Shown here in pieces: positions 971 to 60,375 of a DNA stretch of 64,000 bases (its first letter is position 1; every line of letters begins with the position of its first letter). The position numbers and the translations under genes are program-made. The notes beneath the pieces were generated by a model. That model was not told where the DNA came from. It did no database searches and saw only the letters and a list, made by a program, of their open reading frames with translations. Source of the DNA: Apostichopus japonicus (taxonomy: Eukaryota; Echinodermata; Holothuroidea; Aspidochirotida; Stichopodidae); assembly GCF_037975245.1 (NCBI RefSeq), contig NC_092576.1, forward strand, positions 30,730,611 to 30,794,610. The letters run 5' to 3'.

Positions 971-986
971 ACCTTTCACAGACTGG

Positions 987-1076
987 CAAGGGGACTGGGG
1001 CTGAGAGCGGATCAGTCGTTTGGTAGTTTGGTTTTCGTGCCCAGGTTCTTTCCTGGGTGACTTTTTCTTAAAAAGT
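987..1076 (+). mobile_element. 5'-truncated U2-family SINE (90 bp)
   Basis: This is the 3' half of the SINE family seen complete at 35406-35590. It contains GGGGACTGGGG, the TTTGGTAGTTTGGTTTTCG stretch, the hairpin CCCAGG-TTCTTT-CCTGGG and the terminal ACTTTTTCTTAAAAAGT. A perfect 16-bp duplication, ACCTTTCACAGACTGG, brackets it at 971-986 and 1077-1092. That pattern is the signature of target-primed reverse transcription with 5' truncation. It lies inside the minus-strand Mutator-like relic, so it post-dates that gene. The perfect TSD suggests a fairly recent insertion. Confidence 0.88.
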
Positions 1077-1430
1077 ACCTTTCACAGACTGGCTGCAGTT
1101 GAGCTAAGAAACTATGTGGTAGACTCTTTCCTTCGTTGTAGGTACGTGTACCTTCCCACATGTCAGTGCGGTATTTACACTAGTTATCGTCAGGACAATA
1201 CTGGTGTTGTGCGTCAACATCATGGAGGGCGTTGTGGTACAGTCCCGCCATTATTTCCAGCTGCATCTGTTGCACGATATTGGTTATTTCATCATCATCC
1301 TTTGTGTTTGTGACATATTTACAGATTTTATTACGGTAGTAATCACCCAGTTTAGTGATAAATGGGTTAGTAAGTCCATTTTGCCCTCCCTTCACCTCCT
1401 TATTTCGATCGCGTACGCTTTTGAAGTTTG
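1077..1430 (-). pseudogene. Mutator-like transposase-type gene relic, middle piece
   Basis: Minus-strand reading gives an open stretch with FKSVRDRNKEVKGGQNGLTN, then KLGDYYRNKICKYV and YCPDD. This is the LT-x-IDKL-x-YYG-like segment seen in Mutator-like transposase-type domains. It joins across the large LINE to the piece at 6404: the reading MYTN continues directly into FKSVRD when the LINE and one copy of its 16-bp TSD are removed. The piece shows that the LINE inserted into coding sequence. It carries no transposition activity of its own in this state. Confidence 0.55.
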
Positions 1431-1695: not shown

Positions 1696-2814
1696 ATGGC
1701 GTCGCGCCGTGATAGCCGTATTGTTAAGTTAACTTTTACCGGTGAACAAGCGGTTCCACCGGTCCAAGTGTTCAGTATTTTGAAGAGTAAGGGTGTTGCG
1801 GTTCCTGGAGAGGTTGACGCTTTGCAGGCTCTCCAGGGTCGTAACACGTATGACTTACGGTTCACCAGTGACGTGACCCGGCAGAAGGGTGTCACGTTGC
1901 TGAGTAATGTCGATGGTTTGACAGTTACGCCATACGAACGTTCCGTATGGGTAACTGTCATCCACGTAGGACTAGAGGTGCGTCAGGAACTTGTCGCAAC
2001 TGTTTTAGGTCGGTTTGGGGCTGTCAAGGCTACCAAAATGTGCTCCTACGCACAGGCCCCTGGGGTTTTGAACGGGCACCGACAGGTTCGGATCGACCTA
2101 AAGCAGGACATTCCCTCCTTCCTGTTTATTGCAGGGCATAAAGCTCACGTGCGCTATCCCGGTCAGCCCCGCACCTGCTTCAGGTGTGGAGAGACCGGGC
2201 ACGAAGCCAAGGGCTGCCCAAACAAAAAGTGTGGGCGCTGCCTTCGTCTTGGGCATGATGCCTCTGCTTGCCCAAGCGAAGTTGTGTGCTCACTCTGTGG
2301 GAAGGAGGGACATGTTTTTCGCGCTTGTCCCTCCTCTTATGTATTTATGACAAAGAGCAGGGGTCAAGAAAAGTCGCACAGTTCTGACGCACCTACTGCC
2401 TCGGAGGAAGCTCCACGCAAGGAGGGGGAACCGGGTGAGGATTCACCTTCCGCACCTGGTTCACCCTCCCCTGTAGTTGCAGACCCTAACCCCGTGCCCG
2501 CACCGAGAAAGTCTCCACCAGCTTCCCCCATCAACTCGTCCAGTTCCGTCCCCAGTCCGCCGCCGGTATCGCCAGATCCGGAGACTCTGTCCGACGGCGA
2601 CTCCGGGGACTCGGTAGTCATCGGGTCTCCGGAGGCTCTGTCTGACAGCGACTCCGGAGACTCGGTGATCGTAGAGCCGAAACGTGCCACCGGGACGAGC
2701 TGGTACGACGAGATGGGGGAACCCTCTCTAAAAAGGTCGGCCTCAAGCGACGACTCAGACGACGATATGTCGTCTAGAGCTCGCTTGAAGCTTACAGAAT
2801 CGTCGTCGGCGTAG
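1696..2814 (+). CDS. LINE ORF1 protein with three CCHC zinc knuckles
   Basis: This 372-residue protein is the RNA-binding ORF1 product expected to package LINE RNA with ORF2. Residues 1-150 form a region with alternating hydrophobics that is plausibly an RRM-like fold; that fold is inference. Three C-X2-C-X4-H-X4-C knuckles follow at about 161-174, 179-192 and 198-211. Residues 220-372 are Pro/Ser/Asp-rich, with a duplicated ETLSDGDSGDSVVI-like unit at about 296 and 312. The ATG at 1696 is the first in frame and aligns with MAARRDSKIV in the ORF1-only copies. The stop lies 20 bp before the ORF2 ATG, in a different frame, so ORF2 probably depends on reinitiation or a similar mechanism. The frame has no breaks. 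Confidence 0.9.
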   Translation: MASRRDSRIVKLTFTGEQAVPPVQVFSILKSKGVAVPGEVDALQALQGRNTYDLRFTSDVTRQKGVTLLSNVDGLTVTPYERSVWVTVIHVGLEVRQELVATVLGRFGAVKATKMCSYAQAPGVLNGHRQVRIDLKQDIPSFLFIAGHKAHVRYPGQPRTCFRCGETGHEAKGCPNKKCGRCLRLGHDASACPSEVVCSLCGKEGHVFRACPSSYVFMTKSRGQEKSHSSDAPTASEEAPRKEGEPGEDSPSAPGSPSPVVADPNPVPAPRKSPPASPINSSSSVPSPPPVSPDPETLSDGDSGDSVVIGSPEALSDSDSGDSVIVEPKRATGTSWYDEMGEPSLKRSASSDDSDDDMSSRARLKLTESSSA

Positions 2815-2834
2815 TTTTGCCTCATTGCCCTCTC

Positions 2835-5800
2835 ATGGCCCATACATTTTCAGTTGCCACTTTCAACGTCAATGGCATGAGGGATCATCGCAAGCGCAGT
2901 CGCATTTTCCAATATTGTATTTCAATGGAGGTCGACTGCGTTTGCCTGCAAGAAACACATATTTTGGAAGAAGATGTCCCTCTATGGGCTTATGAGTGGG
3001 GTGGTGGGCTGCATGCTTCGTTTGGTTCGTCTTCATCCTGTGGCACTGTCATCCTTCTGTCACCTCGTCAGGCGGGGTTTGCCACTAGGGTGGAGACGGA
3101 TCACGAGGGCCGATTGGTTTGCATTCTATTCAAGTATCCACAGGGTAACATCTCCCTTTGCAATGTGTATGCTCCCAATCGGCCTTCTGCTAGACGAGAA
3201 TTTTTTAACACGCTACCTTCCTTTGTTCCTGGTAGTGCACCATGTGTCATGGTCGGAGACTTTAACTGTGTCCCAGACTCGGGTCTTGACAGACTCGGGG
3301 CTCCTGTGTCTGCTAGTCCTGACGCTGGGATCACAGAGCTGGACAGATTCACTTCGGCACACCTTTTAGCCGATGTCTGGAGGCATATGCACCCGTGTAG
3401 TAAGGCGTATACGTGGGTGAGGCCGAACGGAGAAGATGCCTCCAGGATAGATCGAGTGTATGCGCCCGTGAGTTTTAAATTTTCGGGTTGCGAGACGCTC
3501 AGCTGTCCGCTCTCTGACCATGACACTGTAGTAGCACGTTTTGTTTTGCCTTCCTTTTTCCCGATCGGGCGGGGCCTATGGAAGCTTAACTGTCGGATTC
3601 TTGGCGAGGCAGAGTTCCGCCAAGGTTTCGAGACCAGGTACAAAGGATGGCAAACATTGAAGCCGGCCTTTGCCTCTACATCCCAATGGTGGGATGATGT
3701 CAAGTTGCGCATCAAACGCTTCGCAATTCAGTATTGCGTGACCCGCGCACGGCGTCGAAGAGAACATTTTTCGAAGCTGTGTGCGGAGGTGAAGTTTGGC
3801 GACCCTTCGGCTGTCATCGCTTTGCAGTCCTATCTCGACGAAAAGTACCACGGTGCCCGCGTCAGGGCCCGTGTCGAAGCGGTGGAAGCCGAGGAACGCC
3901 CTTCACTGAGGTTTTATCAGTCCGTAAGCTCATCGGCGTGTGACAGACGCGTCCCATCTGTGCGCGCTACTGATGGGACCGTGGTTAGTGACCCTCACGG
4001 CATTGTCCGCGTATACAAGGATTATTATTTGAGTTTGTTTACGCGTGGCAGTGTCGACTTGTCGGCACAGGCCGATTTATTGAGGGGAATCTCAAAAACT
4101 GTTCCCCACGATGTCAATGATATTTTGGGGGGCGGAATAACCACTGTTGAGCTTTGGAAGGCGCTTTCGAAGATGAAGAATGGCAAGTCCCCGGGTTCGG
4201 ACGGGCTTCCGAGGGAGTTCTACCGAACCTTCTGGGCATTAATAGGACCCGACCTCAGAGCCGTCTTCGAGGACGCCTTCCAAAACGGACTGTTAAACCA
4301 AAGTCAACGTCTGGGCATGATTACTTTGCTGCCCAAGTCTGGGGACCCCCTGGACCCTCATAACAAGCGTCCAATCACCTTGTTAAATGTAGACTACAAG
4401 TTGTTGGCTAAGGCTTTGTGCAACCGCCTTGCACTGGCTATGCCGCATCTTGTGGGTGATCTCCAGACTTGTGCAGTGAAGGGTCATTGCATCCAGCAAA
4501 ACTTGTGGTTGATGCGCGACTTGACCGACTTTGTTATTGAACGAGATCTGCCATGTGCATTGGTGTCTCTGGACCAGCAGAAGGCCTTTGACATGGTGGA
4601 TCGGGGGTTTTTAATGAATGTATTGGAGACGTTTCAGTTGCACCCGGTTTTTCGTAAATGGATTTCTGTTTTGTATCAGGACAGTTTCAGTTCTGTTATC
4701 GTAAATGGGTTTTGTTCGGAGGTTTTTAGCGTGGAGAGGGGGGTGCGCCAGGGGTGCCCTCTGTCTCCATTACTTTATGTTTTGTTTAGCGAGTCCCTCT
4801 CTCGTCTTTTGGAAAGGGACTCAAGACTTGTTCCATTCGTTGTGCCAGGGGGTGCCAAAGTGAAGTGCGTTCAATATGCAGATGACGTCACGTGTGTTAT
4901 TTCGAGTCTGGGCTCCTTTCGTGCCCTCTCGCAGGATTTATCTATCTTTGAGAGAGCTACCGGGGCGAAGTTGAATCCGGAAAAGACAAAGGGCCTTCGC
5001 CTTGGTAGCTGGAGATACAGAGACTTACCATTCGGTGCATCGTGGTCGGATCAAAATATCAAAATTAATGGTATATGGTTCGGCTATGATGCACCTTGTG
5101 ATGTAACCTGGAACGAGAGGGCTGAGGTGCTTGAGAGCAGGCTCGAAACTTTTGGCACCCGCTGGCTTTCGATCCTAGGGAAAGTCACCGTAGTTAATCG
5201 TTTTCTTTCGCCCATCTTGTGGTACCCGGGCGCGGTGTATCCAATTCCGCATCGCGTCCTGGTGCGGTTGGAGAGAGCGATATTTTCATTTATTTGGTCG
5301 GGTGGTACAGAGCTTGTCAAAAGGGCGGTAATGTACCAAAAACTGGAGAAGGGTGGGTTAGGGGTGGTTCATCTGGGAAGTAAATTGACCTTTTTGTTAT
5401 TTAAGCAGTTGTTTGTAGCGGTAACTGACCCAGGGTTGCCTTGTTCATATTTTGTACGTTTTTGGGGCGGTTTGCACCTGCGTCGATGGGTCCCGGCGCT
5501 GTTTAGCAACAGAGAACCGCATAGTAGTACTCCAAACAGGGTGGTGCGTGTCATCTGCTCCGCTCTGATTGAGTTGCCCCCTGTTGACCTGTCACAGCCG
5601 GCCCTCGTTCACAGTTCGTTGCGAGATAGGGCCTTGAATGCAATTTTTGTCCAGGGACGTCATTCTGCCGAAGTATGGCGTTCGGTGCATTCAAGGCTGA
5701 ATGGTGGCAGGCTCCGTGATCTTGCATGGAGAATTGCACACGGTGCCTTGGTGACCAACCTAAAAAGATATCATTGGCGATTGGGTGATGGACTGTGCCC

Positions 5801-6227
5801 AAGGACCGGCTGTGACAGCTTAGAGAGTACCGCTCATGTTTTTTGGCATTGTTGCTTTGTAGTTAACTTATGGGAGTGGTTCCAGACCTGGACCGACCGT
5901 GTTACGGGAGACCGTTCATGGTCGGTAGGGCAGGGCTTTATTTTATATGGGGTAGACCCTCCAGTTTGTTCGGTTGCTGTTTTGCATCGCATTATTTTTG
6001 TTTGCTCTATTGTGAAAAAACATGTTTGGCGGAATAGATGTGATGTGGTTTTTAGGGGGAAATTTGCCACTTGGCGGGCGGTCCTGGAGGCGGTGAAGTC
6101 TGACATTCGCCTTCAGATTGAAGGTGATTTTCGCCGTTTATCTGGGGCTGCCTTTTTTGGACGGTGGTGTGTTGGGGAGGGGTTTTTCGTTTCGATCCGT
6201 GCTGGTCGTCCTTTTGTGTTTTTTTGA
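2835..6227 (+). CDS. LINE ORF2 protein: endonuclease and reverse transcriptase
   Basis: This 1130-residue protein nicks target DNA and reverse-transcribes the LINE RNA. The N-terminal apurinic-type endonuclease shows FNVNGMR, QETH (near residue 40), VYAPN, GDFN (near 141) and SDHD (near 228). The reverse transcriptase shows GKSPGSDGL (near 450), RPITLLNVDYK, LDQQKAFD (near 580), RGVRQGCPLSP and the catalytic QYADD (near 682). A C-terminal CPRTGC...H...C cluster (about 988-1006) is the usual cysteine-histidine motif after the thumb. I chose the ATG at 2835 (MAHTF); the frame is open from 2817 but begins there at TTG. No stops or frameshifts are visible, so catalytic competence is plausible. 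The family looks like Tx1 rather than RTE or CR1. Confidence 0.92.
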   Translation: MAHTFSVATFNVNGMRDHRKRSRIFQYCISMEVDCVCLQETHILEEDVPLWAYEWGGGLHASFGSSSSCGTVILLSPRQAGFATRVETDHEGRLVCILFKYPQGNISLCNVYAPNRPSARREFFNTLPSFVPGSAPCVMVGDFNCVPDSGLDRLGAPVSASPDAGITELDRFTSAHLLADVWRHMHPCSKAYTWVRPNGEDASRIDRVYAPVSFKFSGCETLSCPLSDHDTVVARFVLPSFFPIGRGLWKLNCRILGEAEFRQGFETRYKGWQTLKPAFASTSQWWDDVKLRIKRFAIQYCVTRARRRREHFSKLCAEVKFGDPSAVIALQSYLDEKYHGARVRARVEAVEAEERPSLRFYQSVSSSACDRRVPSVRATDGTVVSDPHGIVRVYKDYYLSLFTRGSVDLSAQADLLRGISKTVPHDVNDILGGGITTVELWKALSKMKNGKSPGSDGLPREFYRTFWALIGPDLRAVFEDAFQNGLLNQSQRLGMITLLPKSGDPLDPHNKRPITLLNVDYKLLAKALCNRLALAMPHLVGDLQTCAVKGHCIQQNLWLMRDLTDFVIERDLPCALVSLDQQKAFDMVDRGFLMNVLETFQLHPVFRKWISVLYQDSFSSVIVNGFCSEVFSVERGVRQGCPLSPLLYVLFSESLSRLLERDSRLVPFVVPGGAKVKCVQYADDVTCVISSLGSFRALSQDLSIFERATGAKLNPEKTKGLRLGSWRYRDLPFGASWSDQNIKINGIWFGYDAPCDVTWNERAEVLESRLETFGTRWLSILGKVTVVNRFLSPILWYPGAVYPIPHRVLVRLERAIFSFIWSGGTELVKRAVMYQKLEKGGLGVVHLGSKLTFLLFKQLFVAVTDPGLPCSYFVRFWGGLHLRRWVPALFSNREPHSSTPNRVVRVICSALIELPPVDLSQPALVHSSLRDRALNAIFVQGRHSAEVWRSVHSRLNGGRLRDLAWRIAHGALVTNLKRYHWRLGDGLCPRTGCDSLESTAHVFWHCCFVVNLWEWFQTWTDRVTGDRSWSVGQGFILYGVDPPVCSVAVLHRIIFVCSIVKKHVWRNRCDVVFRGKFATWRAVLEAVKSDIRLQIEGDFRRLSGAAFFGRWCVGEGFFVSIRAGRPFVFF

Positions 6228-29046: not shown

Positions 29047-30611
29047 GTGTGCTTTTTATGTGCAAAGAACGGACACGGACCAACAAAACCAAAATTAACC
29101 CCATTCTGTCAAACAACCACAAAAACCCAACCGAAAACCCACAAACAGAAACCTCTCACGAACCCACAAACGTATACAATGCAGCGTTCAACAAAGGACA
29201 CGGACCCAAAGGCCAACAGATCCAAAGCAACAAAGCTCTACAACCCAGCCCCCAAAACTCAACTCCAAGCCACAAACAGAATCCACCCCCCCCCCCACAC
29301 CTAACTCACTCCAATATTCATCCGGTACGCCGTCCCGATCGTAGACGACAGGCTTGCGCATTACCTGCGAAGTTTTCCCAACACGGGTCTTCTCAGGCCC
29401 CTGGCAGTGTTCCTTCCCCCTTTTCCGACGAGCTAGCAGTCCTTAGCTCCTCGTGAACCTTGACCGAGTGGACCTCCCTGTCAGGATCAGGAGGTCCACT
29501 AGCGACCATGGTGTCCGATATAGCGGAAGCTGCTGCGGGCAGGGTGGAAGGGCCACTCGAGTCAATGAAGATCAGTGGCCTGTCTCGTCTCATGAAACCA
29601 AGCGGAGGACTCCTTAGCCACAGCTACTAAGGCTGTAGTGCAGTCCTCCATTGGCGAGTCAGAATCTGGGCCACTTAATGTATCTTGGGCTGGTTGACTC
29701 GGGGCCCAACTAGTACCACCGATAGCGGGCGTAGCTACCGGTGAACCAGTACAAGCGGCAACCTGCGCCGCATACCACTACGCTAGTACCATCTCCGCAG
29801 TTTTGTCCTGCTCTGCCTCAGTGGGCAGGCTGGCAGTCTCGGCAAGTTCGATCAGGGGAAAGGTTAGACACGAAAGAGGGAACAAAGCATCCACTGGGGC
29901 GCTAGTGTCGGACACTGGGGCGATGACAGGATGTCAGAGGCCGATGTCAGAGGCTGGGACGGGGACCGCTTCAACCACGCCCGTAGCCACTCTCGCGGCG
30001 TATGAGCGGTCTTTGCATAAACTGGCGAGCTGGCCTGTTTTCCCACACGAGTTGCAAACGATATCCCCTTTACACTCGGCCAGGGTATGCCCAACCTGTA
30101 AACAGCGGCTACACCGCTTGTTTGGGCACAACCCGGCCTCATGCCCTTCTAGCCCACACCTCCAACAAGTGCGAGGCTGGCCCGGGTATGCAATGTGGGC
30201 CCTGTGCCCATTAGCCCACAAGGTAGAGGGGATATCGGACTTGAGTTCGACTGTAACTCGTCTAGTCCCGGTCCTGACACCCTTACATTCAAGGAATTCC
30301 GGCTCCTCGTAGCCGGTCACTTTCCCAAAACGCCCAAATCTAACATCAAAACAATTCATGCTCCCCCGAAAAACTCACAATACGATTTTGCTGTCACGGC
30401 GAACCGCCATGACAGCTAGGAGTATGGCAAGCCACGCACCTAAGAAAACCAAAAACCACACAACAAAGCCAAAACTACACTAAACAAACTACAAACTATT
30501 GAAAGGCCAAGGTAAAAAACACAGTGTGTGGTCAACGAAAAGTGGAGAGCAGCCGAAAGCACGTCCGCACTCCACGAAAACCAACTACCAAAACCAACTA
30601 CCAACTACAAG
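29047..30611 (-). mobile_element. ORF1-only LINE derivative (HAL1-like), copy 1
   Basis: This 1565-bp minus-strand element has a 5' end with CGTGGAGTGCGGACGTG, an ORF1 remnant, no ORF2 and a 3'UTR ending ..GCACATAAAAAGCAC (one change from the family end). A 9-bp duplication, AACCGTGCT, occurs at 29038-29046 and 30612-30620. The structure matches copies at 34461-36171 and about 58613-60375, so it is a family. It lies inside the gypsy LTR and is younger than it. Confidence 0.82.
29393..30419 (-). pseudogene. ORF1 relic of copy 1 (CCHC protein)
   Basis: ATG at 30415 begins MAVRRDSKIV. An internal deletion removes most of the RRM-like region, joining NCFDVRF to GRFGKVTG. Knuckles CWRCGLEGHEAGLC and CSRCLQVGHTLAEC are intact. 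The third, CNSCGKTGQLASLC, has Gln in place of the zinc-binding His. Later parts change frame and end near LPG-type C-terminal residues before the 3'UTR. Non-functional. Confidence 0.75.
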
Positions 30612-32415: not shown

Positions 32416-33780
32416 TCAATGCTCAAGTCGCAAGACTCCTACTGGAGTCGCAAGGGCGACTCCAGTAGGAGTATTGAGAGATTTCACTTCCGGTGAAGGA
32501 AGAGGTGTCAGAGGTGAACATGAATCCTCTCTTTGGCGGTATGCCTTAAGCATATCGACATGGCAAAAACGTTGGTTTTTCCTCCCGTCAGGGGTGCAAA
32601 TAATGTAGTTTGTGTCGCTTGTTTTATCTTTCACGACATACGGACCGGAGTGGCGCACTCGAAGAGCCTGCCCTTGTATCGGCACTGCCCTTATATTAGC
32701 ACTAGCAATTGATCCCCTGGGGCAAATTGCCTGTCAGTGGCTTTGGTATCATACCAAGTTATCTTTTTGGTTTGGGACTCCTTCAAGTTATTCCTTGCCA
32801 ACTCCCATGCATACATAGGTCAGTCTACTGTTAAAATCTGCCACGTAGACAAGGACATAAAATCAGTTTCATGTGCAGTATCTGTCTTGTTGCGAGGGGA
32901 ATGGTGATGCACACCTGACGATGATCACACAGTTACAGTCCCGATGCAAGGGGACTGGGGTTAGGAGCGGATCAGTCGTTCTGTGGTTTGGTTTTCGTGC
33001 CCAGGTTCTTTCCTGGGCGACTTTTTCTTAAAAAGTTTCATGAACTAATTTCTCCTTCAATATTTTTAATGGCCCACGGACATTGTGTCCAAATACAAGT
33101 TGAAATGGGCTAAACCCTGGTGACTCCTGGACGGATTCACGGGCTGCAAATAAAAGGAAATGCATACATCATGCCACTGTTTTTCCTTATCAAAACAACA
33201 GTAGGTTTTATCATACTCTTAAGAGTAACCAAAACGTAGTAAATTTTTTTAGTAAAGCAGTCGAAATTAGCCTTTATATTCCTGAGAGGTATTGCCTCAG
33301 GAAATCTCGTTGGCGGCACACATAATACTTAGCAAATATTCGTGACCAGACCGAGTTTTTGGTAGCGGTCCAACACAATCTACGATTACCCGACTAAACG
33401 GTTCTTCGAAAGCCGGAATTGGTTTAAGTGGTGCCTTGGGAATCTTTTCATTAGGTTTCCCCACAATTTGGCACACGTGACACGACTTGCAATAGTCAGT
33501 GACAGCTGAACATACACCAGGCCAAAAGAAATTCTCCAAAATTCTGTTGTAGGTTTTAGTGACCCCTGAATGACCTGCAAATGGAGTGTCATGAGCGACA
33601 CCTAAAATTCCTTTACGGTATACCGGAGGAACAACAATCTGATGGATAGTGCGCCATTCGTCATTTGACGAGACATCTCGTGGTCGCCACTTTCGCATTA
33701 AAACCAACAGAGACACTCGGTAACTGTTCTTCAGTTACAGCTTCCTGAAGCAACTTGATTAATTCACGGTCTTTTCTTTG
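32416..33780 (-). pseudogene. Integrase of the gypsy-type element, split by a SINE
   Basis: The zinc finger reads HDTPFAGHSGVTKTYN...CKSCHVC (H-x-H-C-C). The core starts IVDCVGPLP with the first catalytic Asp. Downstream, one frameshift near 33297 leads to FPEAIPLRNIKA. The C-terminal GPYVVKDKTSDTNYIICTPD segment ending HVDMLKAYRQR is the GPY/F module of gypsy integrases. The U2-headed SINE at 32874-33034 cuts the core from the C-terminal part; deleting it and one TSD copy keeps the local frame. Confidence 0.75.
32874..33034 (+). mobile_element. U2-headed SINE, 5'-truncated, in the integrase relic
   Basis: The copy starts within the U2-like head (TGCAGTATCTGT, branch-recognition region). It then follows the family consensus: GGGAATGGTGAT-CACACCTGACGATGATCAC, GGGGACTGGGG, CCCAGG hairpin and CTTAAAAA end. 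TTCATG is duplicated at its borders (up to AGTTTCATG if the terminal AGT is counted as target). The insertion is antisense to the gypsy element. Confidence 0.8.
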
Positions 33781-34819: not shown

Positions 34820-35998
34820 GTTCTTAACTCCCCGTCAACCTTGATCGAGTGGACCTCCCTGTCAGGAAGAGGAGGTCCACTAGCGACCATCGTGTCCGGT
34901 ATAGCGGAAGCGGCCGCGGGTAGGGTGGAAGGGCCACTCGAGTCAATGAGATCAGTGGCCTGCCTCAGTGGGCAGGCTGGCAGTCTCGGCAAGTTCGATC
35001 AGGGGAGGGGTCGGACACGAAAGGGGGAACAAAGCCTCCACCGGGCGCTAGTGTCGGACACTGGGGCGATGACAAGAGCATCATGTGATACGGTGTCAGA
35101 GGCCGGGACAGGGACCGCTTCAACCACGCCCGTAGCCACTCTCGCGGCGTATGAGCGGTCTGGGCATAAACGGGCGAGATGGCCCGTTTTCCCACACGAG
35201 TTGCAACGATATCCCCTTTACACTCGGCCAGGGTATACCCAACCTGTAAACAGCGGCTACACCGCTTGTTCGGGCACAACCTAGCCTCATGCCCTTCCAG
35301 CCCACACCTCCAACAAGTGCGAGGCTGTCCCGGGTATGCAATGTGGGCCCTGTGCCCATTAGCCCACAAGGTAGAGGGGATATCGGACTTGAGTTCAACT
35401 CTAACCTCTCGGCCTTTTGGCTAAGATCATGTGTAGTATCTGTTCCCTTCGGGAATGGTGATACACACCTGACGATGATCACACAGTCACAGTCCCGATG
35501 CAAGGGGACTGGGGCTGAGAGCGGATCAGTCGTTTGGTAGTTTGGTTTTCGTGCCCAGGTTCTTTCCTGGGTGACTTTTTCTTAAAAAGTAACTCTAACT
35601 CGTCTAGTCCCGGTCTTGACACCCTTACATTCAAGGAATTCCGGCTCCTCGTAGCCGGTCACCTTCCCAAAACGCCCCAGTGTCCGCACAACAACCTGTT
35701 CAAACATGACCAGAGGGAGATGGAGGACTGTCACCCACACCGAACTGTCATACGGTGTGACCTTCAATCCCTCAACTCCCTCCAACATATGGACACCTCG
35801 GACGCGGGCAGCCTCCGAGGTGAACCGAACATCAAAAACATTCATACCCCGGAGAGGCTTACGCTGAAGCGCGTCAACCTCTCCAGGGACCTTTAAACCA
35901 ACAGAACGCAAAACTGAAAAAAAAATTGTCCGGGGACGACCTTAGCCTCCCCCGAAAAACTCAACAATACGATTTTGCTATCACGGCGAGCCGCCATG
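34820..35998 (-). pseudogene. ORF1 relic of copy 2
   Basis: ATG at 35998 begins MAARRDSKIVLLSFSG. A T-tract length change near 35925 shifts frame before VGLKVPGEVDALQ. RRM-like, GRFGKVTG and two CCHC knuckles (CWRCGLEGHEARLC, CSRCLQVGYTLAEC with His to Tyr) are readable. A deletion removes the third knuckle. The C-terminus FPRKKRGNTARGLKRPVLGN-LRR is basic and ends at the TAA that coincides with the CAG|GTAATG junction. A SINE interrupts the ORF at 35406-35590. Confidence 0.75.
35406..35590 (+). mobile_element. U2-snRNA-headed SINE, near-complete copy (185 bp)
   Basis: The first 40 nt match U2 snRNA positions 5-45, with one missing T and A30 changed to T. They include CTCGGCCTTTTGGCTAAG and the branch-point recognition stretch GTGTAGTATCTGTTC. 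The body is unrelated to U2: a CCCTTCGGGAATGG hairpin, GATGATCACACAG, GGGGACTGGGGC, TTTGGTAGTTTGG. The tail is a CCCAGGTTCTTTCCTGGG hairpin plus TGACTTTTTCTTAAAAAGT. A 9-bp TSD AACTCTAAC lies at 35397-35405 and 35591-35599; the empty site is preserved in ORF1 copies 1 and 3. No pol III A/B boxes are obvious. Confidence 0.9.
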
Positions 35999-42428: not shown

Positions 42429-42492
42429 CAGTCGTTTGGTAGTTTGGTGTTCGTGCCCAGGTTCTTTCCTGGGTGACTTTTTCTTAAAAAGT
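42429..42492 (+). mobile_element. U2-family SINE, 64-bp 3' end
   Basis: CAGTCGTTTGGTAGTTTGGT through the CCCAGGTTCTTTCCTGGG hairpin to CTTAAAAAGT, nearly identical to the copy at 35406-35590. No clear TSD seen. It abuts the RT fragment on its left. Confidence 0.75.
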
Positions 42493-42499
42493 ATCGTTA

Positions 42500-42870
42500 A
42501 TTATGTCAGGCAACGCTTTCGACATACTGTCCAAGGCAATGAGCATGCGTATGTCTTATAATCAGTATTTAACAGGGAAATAGGCCTTTTGTTTGCGGGC
42601 TTTTTACGATCTCCTTTCTTATGGAGAACCGTAACAACTGCAACTCTCTGGGAAAGGGGATAACGAACCCCGCATCCAAGATTCATTATGCAGTTCCAAC
42701 AGGCCAGCACCGATGAATTCCCAGCACTCAAAATAAAACTCACTTAGCAACCCAACCCGTTGCTGCCAGGCGATTTGTTTGAGGCCATCGTCTTGACCGC
42801 AGCGAAAAGGTTCCTTCGAGGGCTCTGCTGATATCGGGGTAGGTACCGTTGTTCCCAAAGATGATAAATA
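42500..42870 (-). pseudogene. RT fragment of another Tx1-like LINE
   Basis: Minus-strand reading LLSEFYFECWEFIGAGLLEL, then SQRVAVVTVLHKKGDRKKPA and NKRPISLLNTDYK. The pattern parallels LPREFYRTFWALIG and LLPKSGD...KRPITLLNVDYK in the intact LINE but is clearly diverged. Two frames are used. It continues the ORF1 relic upstream on this strand with the endonuclease region missing. Confidence 0.65.
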
Positions 42871-42889
42871 TTCCTCTTTTAACTCTGTG

Positions 42890-43780
42890 TCGACGTCTTG
42901 TTTTATAGAAAATGTCCACGCACAGGGTCGTATGGGAACATTAGAGGGCTAAGGGTTTTCCTCCACGACCTCGCTCTCAACCACATCCGTGGATACTCCC
43001 TTTTCCTCCTGTGGAATAGTGGCAACGGCAGGCTCCAAAGACCCGGATGGAGCTGTTGGTGCTGCGGGGGTGACCACCGTCAAGTCGGCGGCAGGCTCCA
43101 CAGGCACGGGTGGAGTTGCACGGGCTGTGGGGTACCACCATCGAGTCAGTCGGATCCGCCGAATCCGATCCGATTCAAGTTGGGATACTCCTTGATACGG
43201 TGGTCTTGGCCCACATATCGCAGGCAGGTAAACGGCTGCCCAGGATAGCGAACCGATATGTTTCGAGCGCCAATCCGCAGGGACGAGGGGATATCCTTTT
43301 CAAGTACAACCTTGTACTGTCGGTTACCGTTAAATATACTGGGATATTCTAGATTCACACACCATCGGGGAGCGACCACCTTCCCGTACATCCCCAAGGC
43401 AAACTTCACGATGTTGTCGTTCAACTCGTGTTCTACGTTAAGTACAATAAGAACGACATAGTCGTTACTGTACGGGCTCCACCACTACACTGGCCAACCT
43501 CCTCAAAACCTTTACAAAAGCTCGCTTCAATGCTACGGTCTTCAACGTATTATCCTGGGACTTATTGGACAGGACCTGCACTGCATCTAGAACAGACGGA
43601 ACAGTACCTACCAACACTTTCCAATACATCAAAAACCTGCCTCCGAGTACAAACACCATTTGCACACCGAAGCAACACACTACAGTTGCGCCTGACCGAT
43701 GAGGCCATCGCCAGGCAAACGAATCCGAGGAAGAGGAAAAATTCACGGAATGCTAACACGCAAACCGTTAGATGATGAGA
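42890..43780 (-). pseudogene. ORF1 relic of the diverged LINE
   Basis: ATG near 43778 begins MASSVRRNC. Later FDVLESVG, NKSQDNTLKTVALKRAFVKV, LEYPSIFNGNRQYKVVLEKD, IPSSLRIG and YPGQPFTCLRYVGQDHRIKE follow. The last is a CCHC knuckle equivalent to YPGQPRTCFRCGETGHEAKG in the intact LINE, with the second Cys lost. Several frame changes. It is followed on the minus strand by the RT fragment and preceded by a U2 5' fragment. Confidence 0.65.
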
Positions 43781-43901
43781 GGGAAAACGCCTCTCTTGGG
43801 GGAGGGGAACGGGAAACACGAAAACCACAAATCCGACAAAAAATACAGTAAGAAAACACTCCTTTGGAAAACGTTCCAGTAAAACATCTGGTGAACCGCA
43901 A

Positions 43902-43930
43902 TGATCTTAGCCAAAAGGCCGAGAAGCGAT
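43902..43930 (-). ncRNA. U2 snRNA 5' fragment (29 nt) at LINE 5' end
   Basis: The reverse complement is identical to U2 nt 1-29 (ATCGCTTCTCGGCCTTTTGG plus CTAAGATCA). Similarity stops exactly where the LINE 5'UTR-like sequence begins (TTGCGGTTCACC). Either this is the remnant of a U2 gene hit by a U2-targeting LINE, or U2/SINE RNA was joined to LINE cDNA by template switching. No U2 body lies nearby. Confidence 0.8.
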
Positions 43931-47165: not shown

Positions 47166-47360
47166 ACTTTTTTAAGAAAAACCCGCCAAGGAAAGAACCT
47201 GGACACGAAAACCAAACTACCAAACGACTGATCAGCTCAGCCCAGTCCCCTTTCTATCAGGACTGTGAATATCTGATCATCGTCGGGTGTGCATCATCAT
47301 TCCCATCGAAAGGGAACAGGTACTACACATTATGTTAGCCAAATAAGGCCGAGAAGCGAC
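47166..47360 (-). mobile_element. U2-headed SINE, longest copy
   Basis: The reverse complement begins GTCGCTTCTCGGCC, so it reaches U2 nt 2-3. It has a 2-base insertion in the stem-loop (CCTTATTTGGCTAA), keeps GTGTAGTACCTGTTC, then runs through the family body and a CCAGGTTCTTTCCTTGG hairpin to TTTTTCTTAAAAAAG. It is more diverged than 35406-35590, and no TSD is evident, so it is older. It confirms that the U2 head is a fixed part of the family. Confidence 0.85.
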
Positions 47361-49660: not shown

Positions 49661-50383
49661 TTGTCATGTTAGGAGAGATGTGTATAAGTTTTGCGTAGAA
49701 GGTAGACGGAATTTTGTAATCCCTTTTTGCATTATATGTTGCATGATGAAGCGGATTCTCATTTTTCTTTTTGGGTCTTTTAATGAAGCAATAAACTCTA
49801 TATTGCACATGTTTCTGTCTGATAGTTGTTTTTAGTGTTTCTGCTTCTTTTCGAAATTTTTGGCCTTTAGTGACTACGTATAGTCTGTAGCTTTTATTAG
49901 CTTTCACGGATCGGACATATTTGCGTTTTTTAGATAACGAGGGGAGAGGTAGAGAAGAGAAAGTACATTTTGCATGTTGGAGGAGAGGAAAGTAGCTCTT
50001 TCTGGAAAATTTCGTGGCCCTATAAAGGGCCGTTTTTCTCGAGCAAACTCGAGCTTTCGATGATTGGCCTTTGGCGGCTCGCCGTGCCAGCAAAATCGTA
50101 TTGTTGAGTTTTTGGGGGGAGGCTAAGGTCGTCTCCGGACAATTTTTTTTTCACTTTTGCGTTCTGTTGGTTTGAAGGTCCCTAGAGAGGTTGACGCGCT
50201 TCAGCGTAAACCTCTCCGGGGTATGAATCGTTTTGATGCAAGGTTTACCTCGGAGGCTGCCCGCGTCCGAGGCGTCCATGTGGTGGAGGGAGTCGAGGGA
50301 CTGAAGGTCACACCGTATGACAGTTCGGTGTGGGTGACAGTCCTTCATCTCCCTCTGGACATGTCTGAACAGATTGTTGGCCG

Positions 50384-58612: not shown

Positions 58613-60375
58613 GTGCTTTTTACGTGCAAAGAAACGGACACGGACCAAAGGTCAACAAACCAAAAACAATCCCAGTCTGTTTAACAACCACCAAATACCC
58701 AACTGAAAACCCACAAATGTATAAAATGTAGCGTTTAACGTGACGTGAAAAGGACACGGACCCAAAGGCTAACAGAACCAAAACAATAAAGCTCCACAAA
58801 CCAGCCCCAAAAAGCCAACTCCAAACCACAAACAGAAACCCCCCAACCGATATTATGTAAACGACAAACCCCCCACCCCACACATAACAACTCACTAAAA
58901 AATTCATCCGGGGTACGCCGTCCCGATAGCAGACGACAGGCTTGCGCATTACCTGCGAAGTTTTCCCAACACGGGTCTTTTCAAGCCCCTAGCAGTATTC
59001 CCCCTTTTCTTACGAGGGAGCAGAGTTCTTAACTCCCCGTCAACCTTGATCGAGTGGACTGTCAGGAACAGGAGGTCCACTAGCGACCATCGTGTCCAGT
59101 ATAGCGGAAGCGGCTGCGGGTAGGGTGGAAGGGCCACTCGAGTCAATGAGATCAGGGGCCTGTTTCGTCTCATCAAACCAATCGGAGGACTCCTTAGCCA
59201 CAACTAATAAGGCTGTAGTGCAGTCCTCCATTGGGGAGTCAGAATCTGGGCCACTTAATGTCTCTTGGGCCGGTTGACTCGGGGCCCAACTAGTATCACC
59301 GATAGCGGGCGTAGCTACCGGTGAACTAGAACAAGCGGCATTCTGCGCCTCATGCCTCTCCGCTAGTACCATCTCCGCCGTTTTGTCCTGCTCTGCCTCA
59401 GTGGGCAAGGCTGGCAGTCTCGGCAAGTTCGATCAGGGGAGAGGTCGGACACGAAAGGGGAAACAAAGCCTCCACCGGGGCGCTAGTGTCGGACACTGAT
59501 GACAGGAGCATCATGTGATACGGTGTCAGAGGCCGGGACAGGGACCGCTTCAACCACGCCCGTGGCCACTCGCGGCGTATGAGCGGTCTGGGCATAAACG
59601 ATATCCCCTTTACACTCGGCCAGGGTATGCCCAACCTGTAAACAGCCACCGCTTGTTCGGGCACAACCTGGCCTCATGCCCTTCCAGCCCGCACCTCCAA
59701 CAAGTGCGAGGCTGTCCCGGGTATGCAATGTGGGCCCTGTGCCCATTAGCCCACAAGGTAGAGGGGATATCGGACTTGAGTTCAACTCTAACTCGTCTAG
59801 TCCCGGTCTTGACACCCATACATTCAAGGAATTCCGGCTCCTCGTAGCCGGTCACTTTCCCAAAACGCCCCAGTGTCCGCACAACAACCTGTTCAGACAT
59901 GTCCAGAGGGAGATGGAGGACTGTCACCCACACCGAACTGTCATACGGTGTGACCTTCAGTCCCTCAACTCCCTCCAACACATGGACACCTCGGACGCGG
60001 GCAGCCTCCGAGGTGAACCGAACATCAAAAACATTCATACCCCGGAGAGGTTTACGCTAAAGCGCGTCAACCTCTCCAGGGACCTTTAAACCAACAGAAC
60101 GCAAAACTGAAAAGACTTGTCCGGGGACGACCTTAGCGTCCCCCGAAAAATGCAACAATACGATTTTGCTGTCACGGCGAGCCGCCATGACAGCTAGGGG
60201 TGTGGCAAACCACGCACCTACGAAAAACAGAAACCACGCAACAAAGCCAAAACTACACTAACACAAACTGCAAACTATTGAAAGACCAACGTAAAAAACA
60301 CAAAGTGTGTGGTCAAGGAAAAATGGAGAGCAGCCGAAAACACGTCCGCACTCCACGAAAGCAAACTACGACTCT
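58613..60375 (-). mobile_element. ORF1-only LINE derivative (HAL1-like), copy 3
   Basis: Same layout as copies 1 and 2: 3' end GTGCTTTTTACGTGCAAAG at 58613, 3'UTR, ORF1, 5' end with CGTGGAGTGCGGACGTG at about 60345. I found no TSD. The 5' end abuts an unrelated LINE ORF2 fragment on the same strand, so the 5' junction may be chimeric. Confidence 0.82.
59610..60188 (-). pseudogene. ORF1 of copy 3, best-preserved N-terminus
   Basis: ATG at 60188 and an unbroken frame through PGQVFSVLRSVGLKVPGEVD, DSSVWVTVLHLPLDMSEQVV, GRFGKVTGYEEPEFLE and the first knuckle CWRCGLEGHEARLC. A small deletion after CPNKR removes the second knuckle start and shifts frame, ending at a stop near 59610. The C-terminal third remains readable in other frames down to about 58950. 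This copy shows the ancestral start MAARRDSKIV. Confidence 0.75.

Follow-up and report, generated by a model that had tools for sequence, protein, structure and literature searches.

A SINE family headed by nt 1-45 of the host U2 snRNA is probably moved by U2-targeting LINEs with an APE-type endonuclease (Keno-like) and transcribed from copies that reside in U2 genes. In animal U2 genes the promoter lies upstream of the transcript. A U2 head therefore cannot act as the internal promoter of most SINEs, and the transcription of U2-headed SINEs is consequently a puzzle. The finding of SINE copies in U2 genes, beneath the U2 promoter, suggests how a promoterless element of this kind gets copied and spread, as a parasite that uses a spliceosomal RNA gene as its landing site and, probably, as its promoter. 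A single genome shows copies beneath an intact-looking U2 promoter, identical dispersed copies and, at that same base pair in one gene array, plausible helper LINEs. Since promoter-borne and identical dispersed copies occur together, the idea of source genes is directly testable with RNA data.

The SINE copy in the window

The window (C16:30730611-30794610, the whole stretch of 64,000 nt that was analysed) belongs to a genome of 671.6 Mb in 35 contigs. It contains a SINE copy with the following features, all on the forward strand.

35397..35405, +, 5' TSD AACTCTAAC (from the sequence and two empty sites)
35406..35590, +, SINE copy from which U2 nt 1-6 are absent (family unit 190 nt)
35407..35445, +, head, an exact match to nt 7-45 of the host U2 snRNA, with the insertion site at U2 nt 37/38 (GTGTAGT^ATCTG) inside it
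35446..35590, +, body of 145 nt, without U2 similarity past nt 45
35553..35572, +, predicted 3' hairpin GCCCAGG-UUCUUU-CCUGGGU (folding; z = -4.3 for the whole unit)
35574..35590, +, predicted terminal hairpin ACUUUUU-CUU-AAAAAGU (folding)
35591..35599, +, 3' TSD AACTCTAAC (from the sequence)

A sequence-only reading of the window had described the head as 40 nt matching U2 nt 5-45. The match to U2 stands, with limits that were off by a base or two: the exact identity in the window unit is 39 nt long and covers U2 nt 7-45. The covariance search which that reading had proposed as a check did find U2, Rfam RF00004 matching 35401-35484 with 48.2 bits (gathering score 46, E 1.6e-6), and no ribozyme was listed at the SINE unit in the Rfam scan of the window. 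The T at nt 30 is common to the host U2 gene and the SINE head. A decayed or composite head of tRNA- or 5S-like origin, with a resemblance to U2 arisen by chance, was considered and is already refuted by 39 to 45 nt of exact identity that include the host T30 and by an Rfam U2 score over threshold; nothing in support of a tRNA- or 5S-like head was found. The body had been called unrelated to U2, and no U2 similarity was seen beyond nt 45. The claim that the copy moved as a unit agrees with the perfect 9-bp TSD AACTCTAAC on either side of it and with two empty sites, at 59393-60298 and 29813-30335, to which the flanks joined without the SINE unit align across the junction at 91.0% and 92.6% respectively.

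The family across the genome

The exact 48-nt junction of head and body is present at 59 places genome-wide (34 forward, 25 reverse) and its reversed control at 0. A whole-unit search gave, as a rough count, 2699 first-look candidates, and many of the 50 whole-unit matches that were scored are 99-100% identical. The family is young and dispersed; TSD, empty sites and genome copies together bear out the earlier suggestion of a mobile SINE family with the U2 5' end as its head. Contig C17 is rich in young copies, with 15 of the 59 exact junctions, 14 of them within 16.7-25.5 Mb.

An exact 25-nt stretch of the head, U2 nt 21-45, has 280 occurrences, U2 genes included, with a pattern that also required a non-G tenth letter afterwards; the first 100 of the 280 were listed. 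Head and body are consistently joined, as had been supposed, for 95 of the 100 matches listed run on into letters of the SINE body by a motif test. Among the five remaining, three are SINE copies (L085, L087, L088) and one is a head stub before another SINE (L086). The letters that follow U2 nt 45 among the 100 listed are CCTTCGGG in 36, CCTTAGGG in 21, TTTTCGGG in 8 (four of these form two inverted pairs, hence not all are independent) and TTTTAGGG in 7, others being rarer, and in 19 of the 100 the U2 match extends to nt 48-50. These variable junction letters look as if the joint between SINE and U2 had been remade more than once.

All but one of the 59 exact-junction copies (the exception being C15:6480070) were read with their flanks, a sample of 58 that is selected for an intact head. 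Of these 58, 25 start exactly at U2 nt 1 and the others at nt 2-11, so the RNA intermediate apparently begins where U2 transcription does. Upstream sequence resembling the U2 promoter was found in 0/58 by a criterion of at least 18/30 upstream bases matching. A TSD of at least 6 bp was detected by script in 43/58 copies. In 37/58, representing 36 distinct sites, it was at least 8 bp long (8-25 bp, 25 being the ceiling of the script); in 15/58 the script found none, in one case for want of an exact tail.

The 3' end of the SINE is fixed as AAAAAGT. No consensus match to an A or B box was found in the unit, the best B box having 4 mismatches and the best A box 3, and an internal T5 run stops 10 nt short of the unit's end. 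Because boxes are lacking and the T5 run precedes the conserved end, transcription by Pol III looks unlikely.

An older subfamily has 76 exact matches, 20 of which were fetched. In these 20 copies the body differs from the young one by several substitutions and an indel, and headed copies carry a U2-like head. The notion that the head is better conserved than the body between subfamilies was dropped, 20 old-subfamily copies being too few for any claim. One locus (L117, C2:13099500-13103200) is a palindrome of ~3.6 kb with 1.72-kb arms 99.65% identical and an old SINE in each arm; more +/- pairs of old SINEs, 1.7-3.2 kb apart, were seen on C3, C7, C16 and C19.

The U2 gene array and its LINEs

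The Rfam U2 model gave 46 scored matches, 42 of which lie on C16 at 31.015-31.156 Mb, many of them spaced 645 bp. This array is broken by inserts of about 5 kb. Three loci in it (L067, L070, L072) contain two-ORF LINEs, here called A, B and C, whose 3' end adjoins U2 nt 38. The ORF2s of all three have Exo_endo_phos and RVT_1 domains over the Pfam cut-off; zf-RVT passes the cut-off in LINEs B and C but falls slightly short of it in LINE A, and a zinc knuckle was found in the ORF1s scanned (LINEs A and B). The U2 sequence on the 5' side comprises nt 1-30 for LINE A and nt 1-50 for LINE B. Before ATCTG, LINE B ends in GAAAAGT, LINE C in GAAAGT and LINE A in AAAAGAA, so that the AAAGT end seen in the SINE occurs in two of the three LINEs (B and C). 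Insertion is at U2 nt 37/38, with one base ambiguous. Because they are of the APE type and insert at this site, the three LINEs may be termed Keno-like.

At two further loci in the array (L069, L076) U2 nt 30 is followed directly by the 5' end of a fourth LINE-like element, with no blastn match to LINEs A-C. A 5-kb array element (L071) was tried as another nt 37/38 insertion and rejected, as it sits in the spacer.

SINE copies resident in U2 genes

The end of the SINE is joined exactly to U2 nt 38 onward in at least six places, a lower bound as the search used an exact pattern, and all are in the C16 U2 array. The U2 promoter lies upstream in five of the six junctions: two full-body copies and one truncated copy at L073, one full-body copy at L082 and one stacked pair at L081. 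Three of these are thus full-body copies directly beneath the promoter. Upstream identity to an intact U2 unit is 399/400 for the L073 copies, 108/108 for L082 and 167/168 for L081. The full-body copies at L073 have the junctions CCCTCGGG and CCTTAGGG, and the third copy there is 5'-truncated to CCTGACG; the L082 resident has the CCTTAGGG junction and one base change in its head. U2 nt 38-53 flank the truncated L073 copy on either side as a 16-bp TSD, which implies insertion at nt 37/38. L081 reads as a truncated SINE inserted into the head of an earlier resident. The sixth junction (L080) lies behind a LINE, and consists of the LINE end AAAAGT, U2 nt 38-53, a truncated SINE ending in AAAAAGT and U2 nt 38 onward, so that a LINE and a SINE are stacked at one site. 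In the stretches that were read, no SINE copy outside the array has the U2 promoter above it.

One resident with the CCTTAGGG junction (C16:31132317-31132509) matches dispersed copies on C20, C17, C9 and C7 without a difference over 193 nt, and among 40 candidates scored 19 further rows are 100% identical to it over 189-192 nt. Eight identical dispersed copies, chosen for a match starting at U2 nt 1, were fetched. In seven of the eight a TSD was seen by eye at the head, in one case three bases off; the remaining copy (L114, AT-rich) is ambiguous. Resident and dispersed SINEs are one and the same element. Identity gives no direction, and the resident may itself be progeny.

An alternative is that this is an ordinary SINE of the SINEU type, transcribed from its dispersed copies by an internal promoter or a fortuitous flanking one, the copies in U2 genes being on-target dead ends. 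Dispersed copies are indeed far more numerous than residents. In addition, CCTTCGGG, the commonest junction variant (the 59 exact places), has no resident in the assembled array, as this alternative would allow, and two truncated residents have no exact progeny. Against these points, the unit has no A or B box and its T5 run precedes the conserved end; 25 of the 58 dispersed copies start exactly at U2 nt 1, yet U2 promoter sequence was found above none of the 58; and one resident shares all 193 nt with four dispersed copies. We regard this alternative as unlikely, though it is the strongest of those considered. The truncated residents were also examined as a route of head capture. The joints of U2 nt 1-53 to CCTGACG and of U2 nt 1-40 to AGTCCC each occur once genome-wide, at the resident itself, and a head-capture route through these two is therefore unsupported.

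Target sites and stacking

An exact 20-nt SINE tail, in a pattern that required a non-G 15 letters on, has 200 occurrences. The 100 tails listed of these 200 gave 93 distinct sites, of which a few stacked ones are not independent. After the SINE end the listed sites favour A-T-C-T, which corresponds to U2 nt 38-41, with the U2-like letter at positions 2-4 being T in 60/93 (p 1.2e-12), C in 52/93 (2.4e-13) and T in 44/93 (1.3e-4); the leading A may belong to the SINE. The dispersed target motif resembles U2 at only about four downstream positions, and upstream of the dispersed SINEs no clear U2-like signal was seen.

The bases next to AAAAAGT are usually AT or AC, and each insertion accordingly rebuilds a GT^A(T/C) site. 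As the SINE 3' end (AGT^ATC) restores the target in this way, insertions can stack at one site. Several SINEs with differing 5' truncations are stacked at single sites in L074 and L075, and seven adjacent tail pairs less than 300 bp apart are present among the 100 listed tails. At L019 a SINE is inserted at nt 37/38 within the head of another SINE. A dispersed SINE at L051 is preceded by ~U2 nt 17-37, a lead that is expected of RNA from a doubled copy with an insertion at nt 37/38.

The insertion base, U2 nt 37/38, is common to the SINE residents and LINEs A, B and C, so that the SINE shares its target preference with LINEs of the same genome. Neither this common base nor the residents beneath the U2 promoter had figured in the sequence-only reading. 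Local alignment of the SINE body with the UTRs of these three LINEs gave nothing above shuffles, and an origin of the body from U2-targeting LINEs, on the model of the SIDEs discussed below, was rejected for LINEs A, B and C on this ground. The SINE tail has only a short terminal stretch in common with the LINEs, not above shuffled controls.

The insertions in U2 genes also bear on the suggestion that the copies are retropseudogenes of a single chimeric U2-SINE transcript, issued by one or a few interrupted U2 genes, with no self-renewing element involved. The confinement of the upstream U2 promoter to SINE copies in the array, among the stretches read, would be expected if this were so. It sits badly with the many junction variants, with old and young subfamilies, and with insertions into U2 genes that have TSDs, truncated copies included, and that stack. 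Variants, U2-gene insertions and stacking together suggest that the element has entered and left U2 repeatedly, and we consider the suggestion very improbable.

A proposed life cycle

The account that we prefer, a U2-headed SINE transcribed from its residents and moved by the U2-targeting LINEs, may be set out as a cycle. RNA polymerase II would start at U2 +1 of the resident genes and produce an RNA of U2 nt 1-45 followed by the body. The LINE enzymes would then nick U2 or U2-like ATCT sites and reverse-transcribe this RNA from its AAAAAGU end. Because the SINE and LINE tails share only their terminal letters, the assignment of helpers rests on the shared target base. Off-target products would be the dispersed U2-headed copies without a promoter; on-target products would land beneath the U2 promoter again. 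At such a site the U2 head of the cDNA may anneal to the U2 5' end already present in the gene and so give a single-headed copy, its head renewed from the host gene. The head would in this way be both a borrowed transcript start and a copy of the target site, and the direction of movement would be from resident source to dispersed progeny.

We would give even chances to a fuller statement of this cycle as that of a two-phase retroposon. Its genes, in the U2 array, would use the U2 promoter; its head would act as transcript start, as promoter-restoring homology arm and as target-site copy; and its dispersed copies would be promoterless by-products. If this is true, snRNA-headed SINEs in general would be passengers of LINEs that target snRNA genes, with heads taken anew in each cycle, and the same account may hold for the SINEU of crocodilians.

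Comparison with known systems

The crocodilian SINEU of Kojima (2015) are reportedly short non-coding SINEs with U1 or U2 snRNA heads, and are said to show recurrent addition of such heads and to share their target with a LINE of the Tx1 clade. The present element is like them in having a U2-derived 5' head and in being short, dispersed and flanked by TSDs. It differs, as far as descriptions can be compared, in its echinoderm-type host, in inserting at U2 nt 37/38 and stacking by way of a target that it rebuilds itself, and in having copies in U2 genes beneath the U2 promoter; we know of no report of SINEU copies resident in U2 genes. The strict definition of a Pol III SINE does not apply to it, as internal A and B boxes are absent.

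As to the host, contig C35 under code 9 has COX1, ND4L and COX2 without stops, each confirmed by Pfam, and the COX1 codons include TGA 14, AAA 11, AAT 2 and AAC 1 times. The order COX1-ND4L-COX2 together with code 9 is one that we take to be echinoderm. An origin separate from that of the crocodilian SINEU fits this echinoderm-type mitochondrion.

In the abstracts and passages surveyed, neither an invertebrate SINE with a U2 head nor a SINE lodged in U2 genes was found. The snRNA-headed SINEs are a known class (SINEU), of which this is a new lineage with features undescribed in the literature found.

The nearest mechanistic parallel is that of the R2 and R2/R1 SIDEs of Drosophila, which are non-autonomous, lie in the multicopy target gene of a LINE and depend on transcription of the host gene (PMC3414825). 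The present SINE likewise resides in the multicopy target gene of a LINE. The SIDEs are described there as derived from the LINE by internal deletion and as having a 5' ribozyme (PMC3414825), whereas the SINE body resembles the UTRs of LINEs A, B and C no more than shuffles do, and the element is headed by the retained 5' end of the host gene and spreads beyond the target gene.

Among autonomous elements, Keno (APE) and Utopia (RLE) share a 3' flank at the U2 site, and the downstream junction of oomycete Utopia is at nt 39; Utopia is recorded from sea urchins and a starfish, and Keno from frogs, fish, lancelet and hydra, in the portions consulted (PMC4640811). LINEs A, B and C resemble Keno in their APE endonuclease and their position at the U2 nt 38/39 site. 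Keno and Utopia differ from the SINE in being autonomous LINEs, and the same portions describe no SINE partner for them (PMC4640811).

Other elements in the window

The sequence-only reading had listed other copies near 987-1076, 32874-33034, 42429-42492 and 47166-47360, and all four were recovered in the window, with a LINE relic beside one of them.

986..1080, +, SINE copy truncated at the 5' end and flanked by a separate TSD, CCTTTCACAGACTGG
32869..33036, +, older SINE copy that begins near U2 nt 27 and shares 88.7% identity with the unit at 35406-35590
42429..42493, +, 3' portion of a SINE copy, adjoining the LINE A relic (sequence match)
42494..43930, -, fragmented relic of LINE A, not a SINE, whose 5' end carries U2 nt 1-30
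47169..47360, -, older, nearly complete SINE copy that has a U2 head (sequence match 47354-47169; U2 score of 27.0 bits, under the gathering score)

The segment 43770-43930 (-) was tried as a SINE, or as a second SINE family, and rejected, as it is U2 nt 1-30 fused to the relic of the U2-targeting LINE A. This relic, at 42494-43930 (-), lies ~0.2 Mb from the U2 array. An intact-looking two-ORF LINE occupies 1696-6227 (+) of the window. Its ORF1 of 372 aa has zinc-knuckle-like motifs by eye, and its ORF2 of 1136 aa has endonuclease and RT domains over the cut-off and zf-RVT below it. A match resembling a histone 3' stem-loop was seen at 49991-50036 (-), scoring 25.1 bits against a gathering score of 34 and thus under it.
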